Shown here in pieces: positions 2,438 to 23,361 of a stretch of DNA of 34,515 nt. The notes beneath the pieces were generated by a model that worked only from the letters and a program-made list of their open reading frames with translations, had not been told where the DNA came from and searched no databases. Position 1 is the first letter of the stretch. Each line of letters starts with the position of its first letter. A program made the translations under genes and the position numbers. Origin of the DNA: Bacillota bacterium (GTDB lineage Bacteria > Bacillota > Clostridia > Acetivibrionales > DUMC01); assembly GCA_013314855.1 (NCBI GenBank), contig JABUEW010000036.1, positions 1 to 34,515 of the forward strand. Reading direction: 5' to 3'.

Positions 2438-2615
2438 AGAAAGCGAGGAAACCTAATGCTATTATACCATATTTGCTTAAGCTAATAAAATCCCTAAATA
2501 AATTTCTTTTCAAAGTCCAATGTTTTCTTGTAAACAGATATATGGACAACTCTCCTTCCGATAACCCTGTTTCTCAGAAATACCGTGCTTTAAAGATCGA
2601 TGAAATGGTGGGTAT

Positions 2616-2857
2616 GGCGCATTTTCTATGTATGATCCATATAATGACAGAAACATTGCGCAAGGCCTCGTAGAGACTGTTAATCCGACGAGGGATAAGC
2701 AAATCAACTGTATGAGCAAAATAATTACATTGATGTGTTATTAAATTTTATTCAAATTATTTTGTGAGTTTGATTTGCCCCGAAGTGAATTTACAGGCTC
2801 TAGAGGCCTGAAGCACTGTTTCTGGAATATAATGGGTCATGGGAAGAAAATGCGCCC
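2616..2857. mobile_element. Foldback MITE-like element with 9-bp target duplication
   Basis: The left end GGCGCATTTTCT (2616-2627) is matched by the inverted right end (AGAAAATGCGCCC, to 2857). The similarity continues inward through the whole element: shared blocks include CAGAAACA, AGGCCTC, GCAAATCAA and AAAATAATT. The element is therefore one long imperfect hairpin with arms of about 110-120 bp, roughly 70-75% identical by eye. It is flanked by a perfect direct repeat GGTGGGTAT at 2607-2615 and 2858-2866, as expected of a transposon target duplication. It encodes no transposase and would need to be mobilised in trans. A second copy begins at 34389. The parent IS family was not identified. 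Confidence 0.8.
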
Positions 2858-2865
2858 GGTGGGTA

Positions 2866-2894
2866 TTGACAATAAGATGATGTTATTTGATAAT
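2866..2894 (+). promoter_or_regulatory. Strong sigma-A promoter of the corrinoid-activator operon
   Basis: TTGACA (2866-2871), a 17-bp spacer and GATAAT (2889-2894). The first T of the -35 is the last base of the right-hand target duplication of the foldback element, so the insertion abuts the promoter without destroying it. Transcription would start near 2901, leaving a leader of about 118 nt before the gene at 3019. Confidence 0.7.
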
Positions 2895-3018: not shown

Positions 3019-4851
3019 ATGATGTATACTGTGAGGGTACATACTAACGGGAAAATGCGGGAATTTAATGTAATACCAGGTAAAAATTTACTGGATTTTT
3101 TGCGAGATAATTCTATAGATATATCTACACCTTGCGGGGGAAAAGGGACTTGCGGGAAGTGCCGGATTAGAGTAAAGGGACTTTTAGAATTGCCTTCGGA
3201 GAAAGAAAAGGTTCTTCTCGGGAATAAAGCCTTGACTGATGGTTACAGATTAGCATGCTATAACAAAATTGAATCTGATATTGAAATATACTTGGACAGT
3301 GACGATGAAAATAAAGACGCAAACATTGTCACCTCTGGGCTGGAGAAAGTAATAAAGGTTAGGCCCATTGTTATAAAAAAATATGTAGAGATGCCTATAC
3401 CTGACATATCAGACCAGAGACCCGATACTGATAGAGTTATTGATGCCTTTGGCGGTAATATAGAATTGACTTCTATAGAGTTAATTAGAAAGCTTCCTGA
3501 ATTAATAAGGAAACAAGGATACAAAGTAACAATTATTGGCAATGAAAATGAGATTATTGGGATTGAGCCTGGAAATACTTCAAATAAACTATACGGTATG
3601 GCCGTTGATATAGGCACAACTACAATTGCTGCGTATTTATATGACTTAAACAATGGCAAAAGAATGGATGTATATTCAACGCTGAATCCGCAAAGGAAAT
3701 TTGGGGCAGATGTTTTATCACGCATAGACTATGCTAGTAATTCAGAAGCATCTCAAAATAACATACATAGAGAAATTATTGGCTGTATAAACCATATCAT
3801 AGAGACATTTTCACAAAACAATGGCATTGAAAGCAGTGATATATATATTGCTGTATTTGTGGGCAATACAACAATGATACACTTCTTGATGGATTTATCT
3901 GCAAAGAACATTGCCCTGTCACCTTTTATACCTGTTACTACAAGCATTTACAATATAAAGTCGACAGAGCTTAACATTAAAATAAATCAAAGAGGCATGA
4001 TCGTCATATTTCCTTCAGTTTCTGCATATATTGGTGCTGATACTGTTGCCGGTGTACTTTCTACAGGAATGCATGAAAAGGATGAAATATCATTACTGGT
4101 AGATATTGGTACAAATGGGGAAATTGTTTTAGGAAATAAAGACTGGATGTATTCATGTTCTACTGCAGCAGGCCCTGCCTTCGAAGGGGCAAATATACGA
4201 AATGGGATAGGTGGAATTAGAGGTGCTATAGATAGGGTTTTTTTCGAAGATAAATTAAGGTATACTACAATCGGTAATGGAAAGCCTATAGGGATATGTG
4301 GGTCAGGTATTGTGGACGTAATCGCAGGAATGCTTGAGAATGGCATTATAGACGAGACGGGCAGGATTATTGATATTGATGAATTATCTGACTTAGAAAA
4401 GGATTATAAGACAAGATTGGCGAAGATTGACGGATTAAATTCATTTATTTTGGCAAAGGGTGAGGATAGCTTTTCCTATAATGAGATTGCCATTACACAA
4501 AAAGATGTAAGAGAGTTGCAAAATGCGAAGGCAGCTATAGCTGCAGGTATAAAAGTATTAATAAAAAAAGCAGGGATAAGGGCTGATGATATAAGCAAAG
4601 TTTATTTGGCAGGAGGATTCGGAAATTATATAAATATTAAAAGCGCATTAAAAATTGGTCTAATACCTGCAGAATTAAAGGAAGAAAAAATAGAATCTGT
4701 TGGAAATGCTGCGGGTTCAGGAGCCATCTTAGGCCTTCTATCGGTTAAAAAATTAGAAGAAACTATTAAAATAAAAAATATGATAAAATACATAGAGTTA
4801 TCTGCATCAAAAGAATTTGTTGATGAATATGTCAATTCTATGTTTTTTTAG
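3019..4851 (+). CDS. Fe-S/ASKHA corrinoid-protein activator (RACE/DUF4445-type)
   Basis: Predicted ATP-dependent reductive activator that returns inactive cob(II)alamin of a corrinoid protein to cob(I)alamin in methyl-transfer pathways. The N-terminus is a 2Fe-2S ferredoxin domain with Cys39, Cys45, Cys48 and Cys80 (CGGKGTCGKC then LACYNK). The rest is an ASKHA ATPase: AVDIGTTTIAAYLYD near residue 195, LLVDIGTNGEIVLG near 358, AAGPAFEGANIRNG near 382 and LAGGFGNYINIKSA near 529. At 610 residues it is full length for the family. Start is the first of two ATGs, after GAGGGG at 3005-3010. It leads an operon that also holds 5-formyltetrahydrofolate cyclo-ligase, which fits a one-carbon role. No corrinoid protein or methyltransferase is in the window, so its partner is unknown. 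Confidence 0.85.
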   Translation: MMYTVRVHTNGKMREFNVIPGKNLLDFLRDNSIDISTPCGGKGTCGKCRIRVKGLLELPSEKEKVLLGNKALTDGYRLACYNKIESDIEIYLDSDDENKDANIVTSGLEKVIKVRPIVIKKYVEMPIPDISDQRPDTDRVIDAFGGNIELTSIELIRKLPELIRKQGYKVTIIGNENEIIGIEPGNTSNKLYGMAVDIGTTTIAAYLYDLNNGKRMDVYSTLNPQRKFGADVLSRIDYASNSEASQNNIHREIIGCINHIIETFSQNNGIESSDIYIAVFVGNTTMIHFLMDLSAKNIALSPFIPVTTSIYNIKSTELNIKINQRGMIVIFPSVSAYIGADTVAGVLSTGMHEKDEISLLVDIGTNGEIVLGNKDWMYSCSTAAGPAFEGANIRNGIGGIRGAIDRVFFEDKLRYTTIGNGKPIGICGSGIVDVIAGMLENGIIDETGRIIDIDELSDLEKDYKTRLAKIDGLNSFILAKGEDSFSYNEIAITQKDVRELQNAKAAIAAGIKVLIKKAGIRADDISKVYLAGGFGNYINIKSALKIGLIPAELKEEKIESVGNAAGSGAILGLLSVKKLEETIKIKNMIKYIELSASKEFVDEYVNSMFF

Positions 4852-23162: not shown

Positions 23163-23263
23163 AACAACAACCTCCTTAAAACATGGGTCATATTATTAAA
23201 GCAATAATATATTTCACTATACATAATATTCGAATTATGTTAAATTGGTACTATTGAAAGGGC

Positions 23264-23326
23264 GCATTTTATTTTTTTTTGAAGAAAATGCTTCCAGTAA
23301 CTAAATGCTCCTTCCAGCATTTTTTC
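23264..23326 (+). terminator. Alternating AAAATGC/GCATTTT hairpins upstream of rpsO
   Basis: AAATGCT (23303-23309) and AGCATTT (23316-23322) form a stem with a CCTTCC loop followed by a T-run, a terminator shape on the plus strand. A nearby AAAATGC (23285-23291) could instead pair with GCATTTT at 23264-23270 or with the downstream AGCATTTT. No plus-strand gene precedes it, so what it would terminate is unclear. Confidence 0.4.
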
Positions 23327-23361
23327 AAAATTAAAAAATGAAGCCAAAACTTAACTAGTTC

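Follow-up and report, generated by a model that had tools for sequence, protein, structure and literature searches.

A probable ISKra4-group foldback MITE with a conserved hairpin core upstream of a RACo-type gene in a clostridial genome

The analyzed window is a stretch of 34,515 nucleotides from a clostridial MAG (4.43 Mb, 252 contigs), the nearest named relatives of which, according to SpoIVA, are Clostridiaceae/Hungateiclostridiaceae-type MAGs. The plus strand of the window carries a gene for a RACo-type corrinoid-protein activator with Fer2 and RACo domains (3019–4851). The gene lies 3' of a sigmaA-type promoter, TTGACA-17-GATAAT (2866–2894, plus strand; 11/12), and the intergenic region upstream of it contains a 242-bp element (2616–2857, plus strand according to the "top" orientation of its core), in which no gene was found. 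The sequence GGTGGGTAT is located at 2607–2615 and is repeated at 2858–2866, so that the element is flanked by a perfect 9-bp target duplication, as had been stated in a preliminary description of this DNA. The -35 hexamer of the RACo promoter (2866–2871) overlaps the right copy of this duplication, and its distance from the repeat end is 8 bp instead of 16 bp.

The ends of the element were defined by comparison of its arms and by other copies. The left terminal inverted repeat, (G)GGCGCATTTTC, occupies positions 2616–2627 on the plus strand, and the right one, GGGCGCATTTTC, positions 2846–2857 on the minus strand. The terminal repeat of the family is GGG(C/T)GCATTTT..., and the left end of the window copy reads (T)GGCGC; either its first G may have been lost or mutated, or the duplication may consist of 8 bp plus one base. 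Two further palindromic sequences were observed in the same intergenic region. An unrelated foldback element of approximately 155 bp is located just upstream (2195–2350; -84.4 kcal/mol), with a copy of 94% identity on a different contig of this genome, and a third large imperfect hairpin was noted at 2359–2509, a 26-base piece of which is repeated on another contig.

The arms 2616–2669 and 2803–2856 show 74% ungapped complementarity. According to the folding analysis, the sequence 2616–2857 forms a single hairpin with an energy of -101.8 kcal/mol, compared with -61.2 ± 4.5 kcal/mol for shuffled sequences (z = -9.0; none of 200 shuffles was as good), which bears out the earlier claim that the whole element is one imperfect hairpin. 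Model searches and covariation delimit a conserved core of this hairpin, found class-wide in Clostridia, at 2646–2828 on the plus strand. In its helix P1, the 5' arm AGAGACTGT (2672–2680, plus strand; coordinates obtained by counting along the sequence) pairs with the 3' arm ACAGGCTCT (2793–2801, plus strand). The alignment additionally shows a conserved unpaired apical motif, ACTGTATGAGC (2707–2717, plus strand; family form ACTGTYTGAGC), and opposite it GTGAG (2764–2768, plus strand; family form GCGAG). Rfam searches gave no match to a known RNA at the gathering score in the whole window, and no credible match at relaxed thresholds for the element and eight of its relatives.

A search for further copies, proposed in the preliminary description, revealed strong DNA matches at 40 places in the host genome. 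Contig ends truncate many of these copies, an indication that the assembly breaks because of the repeat itself. The end pattern GGGCGCATTTT... gave 137 matches, overlapping alternatives included, against 2 for the reversed control, and the core model gave 39 matches among 44 scored candidates; core-bearing places in the MAG thus number about 40 or more. Besides the 242-bp element, two copies lie in the window. A degenerate 86-bp family member with the left end GGGCGCATTTT (23260–23345, plus strand) was recognized by its end pattern and by the promoter scan, with TTGACT-17-TAAAAT starting exactly 16 bp past its right end. Another copy, detected by DNA search and end pattern, is cut by the contig end (34389–34515, plus strand). 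In the host genome, two subfamilies differ in their outer arms, and each arm changes jointly with its partner. Searches of plasmid and phage collections gave no match.

The same ends bound elements of 34, 55, 129, 131, 243 and 272 bp. The 34-bp forms appear to have arisen from the longer form by deletion between its short direct repeats, GCATTTTC or GAAAATGC. Elements of 33–34 bp consisting of two terminal repeats back to back were observed at seven loci (L321–L324, L336, L337, L339), with clear 8-bp duplications around two of them (L323 and L339); they are probably deletion derivatives, and the 34-bp derivatives show how far such elements can shrink. In addition, a 272-bp element with the same ends and another interior (L329:143-414) represents another MITE lineage on those ends.

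Target duplications and neighboring promoters were analyzed for 44 elements from the host genome and three further genomes (G041, G044 and G018). In 25 of the 44 elements, the two flanking 8–9-mers match at 8 or more positions, against 0.2% of left–right cross pairs, and in a permutation test none of 20,000 permutations reached the observed mean agreement. The flanks were then scanned for TTGACA-16/18-TATAAT-like sites, with shuffled flanks as a control. Strong -35/-10 pairs with the -35 starting 15–17 bp from the repeat were present in 29 of 87 flanks (0.19 expected from the shuffles, maximum 2), and in 18 of the 29 the distance was exactly 16 bp. Counted by element, 27 of the 44 possess such a promoter and 17 do not. 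The promoters read away from the element, and either end of the core can face them: 10 lay 5' of it and 11 lay 3'. According to Guerillot et al. 2014 (PMC3942029), elements of p-MULT 3 (TnGBS, ISLre2) and some p-MULT 4 ISKra4 elements generate 8–9-bp repeats and insert with the -35 approximately 16 bp from the element end (a 13–17/16-bp signature), and both insertion orientations occur where the two terminal repeats are nearly perfect complements. The duplication length and promoter spacing of the MITEs are this published ISKra4/ISLre2 targeting signature. The features expected of an ISKra4-derived element, namely an 8–9-bp duplication and, at the level of the family, a sigmaA -35 at approximately 16 bp in either orientation, were both found; the window copy, with its -35 at 8 bp, departs from the family spacing.

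No copy of the MITE family was found in the genome of a congener of the host (G001). Upstream of its RACo gene lies TTGACA-17-AATAAT, which is recognizably orthologous to the promoter in the window and lacks the element. An empty site, proposed as a check in the preliminary description, is present in this relative: the orthologous promoter stands without the element, with a flank beyond the -35 that is too diverged for a single GGTGGGTAT to be visible. The many copies, the common ends at other sizes, the element-free promoter of the congener and the lack of any gene or known RNA support the original reading of the window element as a foldback MITE, which is correct.

The preliminary description had left the family and its transposase unnamed and had proposed a search for a full IS with the same ends. 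Elements with ends of this kind were found in relatives, two of which have an intact IS. The nearly closed genome G041, which belongs to another family of the same order as the host and contains approximately 40 or more MITE copies, carries an intact 1641-bp IS with the ends GGGTGCAT, a 9-bp duplication AAAAACATC and a gene for a 455-aa transposase. This protein scores 300.7 bits against the NCBIfam ISKra4 model (cut-off 205), 95.6 bits against the ISLre2 model (cut-off 200) and 38.4 bits against Pfam UPF0236. Approximately 25 bp at the right end of the IS match the ends of MITEs in G041 and those of one MITE type in the host; the subfamily of the window element itself did not reach the reporting score in this comparison. 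Another genome (G040) has a second intact ISKra4-type IS with such ends, and both ISs have a neighboring -35 at exactly 16 bp. In the 252-contig host assembly, on the other hand, the search for an intact IS ending in exactly GGGCGCATTTTC was negative. A single ISKra4-family copy is present there; it is divided between contigs C210 and C179, an IS256-type gene interrupts it, and its ends (GGGTGCGATTT...) are related, not identical, to those of the MITEs. Two other candidate parents were rejected in the host: genes of IS256 type (PF00872) are all broken and have no matching ends, and the one intact ISLre2-type gene (PF06782) has other ends. It was also observed that the nearly closed genome G039 contains approximately 44 PF06782 (ISLre2-type) matches (L198, L203, L206–L225) and no core match, and that its congener G041 contains the MITE instead and no ordinary ISLre2. 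Because the ends, duplication length and promoter targeting agree with those of the intact ISKra4 ISs in relatives, the MITE is strongly indicated to be of ISKra4 (Mutator-superfamily) type. We infer that an ISKra4-family transposase moves the copies in the host genome; the actual mobilizer of the present copies may be absent from the assembly or extinct.

Unlike the ends, the core is not confined to this kind of element. According to covariance-model searches (a first model, R1, with a poor automatic structure, was superseded by R2), the core is present in 19 of 58 genomes of the order and in 39 of 391 Clostridia genomes from 26 genera; it is usually multi-copy, with copy numbers that are lower bounds because at most 8 candidates were scored per genome in the class-wide search, and it is distributed patchily among close relatives. 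In a sample of 398 genomes from across the phylum, the 20-base apical motif was detected in 11, up to 36 times in one of them, and its reversed control in none. The stems vary, but conservation persists in the internal loops and in the apical ACTGTYTGAGC...GCGAGTTT. In other clostridial families, the core recurs with wholly different outer arms. In G037 and several families it lies between ends related to TTAATTTAAC..GTTGTGCTAG, and visual inspection alone suggests AT-rich 8–9-bp repeats around these elements. Copies in G031 differ from one another in their outer ends; a test for insertion of these copies into pre-existing palindromes showed only a weak excess, of the same size whether the flank similarity was inverted or direct. 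ISKra4 transposases are therefore not the sole vehicle of the core, which is found between other terminal sequences as well, and these arrangements suggest a module that travels on more than one kind of transposon. Two contigs of a viral collection (L394 and L395), the hosts of which are probably non-clostridial, also contain similar hairpins that bear the apical motif TGTTTGAGCGAAGCGAGTTT at the tip. The core is absent from Rfam, a literature search on the apical motif found no bacterial paper, and no description of the core was found in the sources searched (most subscription journals and ISfinder lay outside the search). The DNA-like hairpin core is the new part of this MITE of ISKra4 type.

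Several other explanations were weighed against an ISKra4-group MITE. That the repeat is a chance palindrome, a tandem duplication or an assembly artefact is practically negligible as an explanation: the MAG is fragmented and its contigs often end within the repeat, yet the folding z-score is -9.0, and dozens of copies have different flanks and duplications of their own, also in nearly closed genomes such as G041. Copy number and independent duplications already refute this reading. Mobilization by another Mutator-superfamily transposase, e.g., of ISLre2 (p-MULT 3), is improbable. ISLre2 elements share the 8–9-bp duplications and promoter targeting, the same signature having been published for them (PMC3942029), and the host has its one intact ISLre2-type gene; however, the flanks of that gene lack GGGCGCATTTT ends, the ISs with the common ends score as ISKra4, and G039 has no core match in spite of its many PF06782 matches. 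Moreover, ISLre2 inserts in a fixed orientation, whereas the MITEs have promoters on either side.

As for the core, its pairs co-vary strongly across families. Helices P0, P1 and P2 show two-sided changes in 13 of 20 pairs among 22 aligned sequences (none of 500 shuffles; far lower values in slid controls) and in 19 of 20 pairs among 44 sequences aligned to the model. This covariation, the conserved internal loops and the very stable fold would suit a functional RNA, regulatory or mRNA-stabilizing like REP, ERIC or Correia, that was spread by a transposon and kept for its RNA. Such an RNA is nevertheless unlikely. At 18 well-paired positions in 37 sequences, 638 cells are Watson–Crick, 5 are G-T and 4 are A-C (0.8% G-U), although these cells are not independent, the sequences being related; tRNAs in the same loci have 7.5% G-U (50/669), ten-fold more. 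The alignment was fitted to the model and favors its structure, but the model permits G-U, so the bias should be small. A mild G-T excess appears in one count, that of whole-hairpin mismatches (36 G-T vs. 19 A-C), to which conserved apex mismatches contribute. No preferred orientation of the core was seen, either towards neighboring genes (67 in the same direction, 85 in the opposite one) or towards the promoter, the direction of which is away from the element. Thus, covariation with G-U pairs and a strand bias, as in an RNA family, was looked for and not found, and the suggestion in the preliminary description that such elements can be transcribed into long hairpin RNAs is left without support, G-U pairs being almost nil and strand bias absent. 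The few G-U pairs, the lack of orientation preference and the lack of an Rfam match favor pairing at the DNA level, maintained either by a protein that recognizes a folded strand or a cruciform, or through correction by template switching; the pairs co-vary as if selection acted on DNA, not RNA, and the core behaves like a DNA hairpin. Template switching, which is known to build and mend hairpin stems in a single step (PMC8794818), would correct the arms with almost no intermediates, as is seen in the stems (56 two-sided vs. 5 one-sided changes, a ratio that also speaks against an RNA), and could make the pairing of the core mostly a mutational by-product with no structural selection. This explanation concerns the core only, is compatible with the MITE and is a possibility of some, though minor, weight: the core is conserved over many families, and its specific internal loops and unpaired apical motif are conserved class-wide and not corrected away. 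Template switching alone would not account for the particular loops that stay unpaired.

The window element is thus very probably a non-autonomous, promoter-seeking ISKra4-group MITE (Mutator superfamily, p-MULT 4) with a DNA-hairpin core. A transposase supplied in trans would recognize the ends GGG[C/T]GCATTTT... and excise or copy the element, and insertion just upstream of the -35 of a sigmaA promoter would yield the 8–9-bp duplication; in the window, the element would have landed beside the -35 of the RACo promoter. The core would be kept as a DNA secondary structure, most likely as the binding site of a protein that recognizes it in single-stranded or cruciform form. The copies, common ends, duplications, promoter spacing, element-free ortholog, ISKra4-IS ends and core covariation behind this proposal were established by computation. 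More tentatively, by analogy with attC and REP hairpins, the core could be an undescribed portable DNA-hairpin module of Clostridia, perhaps also present beyond them, recognized in its single-stranded or cruciform fold by a conserved factor and carried by transposons that differ in their ends and transposases. If so, it would give non-autonomous elements an advantage that is not tied to one transposase.

These results name a likely mobilizer for an abundant clostridial repeat. They also show a promoter-seeking MITE, which settles time and again along the upstream margin of promoters that it leaves intact, and which could thereby change expression. The core, shared class-wide, is a clear case in which textbook covariation probably does not mean a functional RNA; a near-lack of G-U pairs could serve as a simple test in other palindromic repeats, too.

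Among known systems, integron attC sites, IS200/IS605 ends and REP hairpins are folded single-strand sites in which conserved unpaired bases, not the stem sequence, are kept. The core resembles them as an imperfect hairpin with conserved unpaired bases, and this is a resemblance only. Bacterial MITEs and palindromic repeats such as Correia/NEMIS, RUP, ERIC and Nezha are short, non-coding, multi-copy intergenic sequences that are moved in trans and can form hairpins; the window MITE differs from them in its ISKra4-type ends, promoter targeting and class-wide hairpin core. A 2024 review of prokaryotic MITEs (PMC10969869) makes no mention of ISKra4, ISLre2 or Mutator. TnGBS/ISLre2 (p-MULT 3) share the duplication length and the targeting of promoter-upstream sites with the MITE but insert in a single orientation, and the host ISLre2 copy has other ends. 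The closest agreement is with ISKra4 elements (p-MULT 4, PMC3942029): GGG-type ends, 8–9-bp duplications, a sigmaA -35 at a distance of approximately 16 bp, near-symmetrical repeats with promoters at either end, and intact ISKra4 ISs with such ends in related genomes. Compared with an ISKra4 IS, the MITE has no transposase gene, is 34–272 bp long and contains a hairpin core in place of the ORF.
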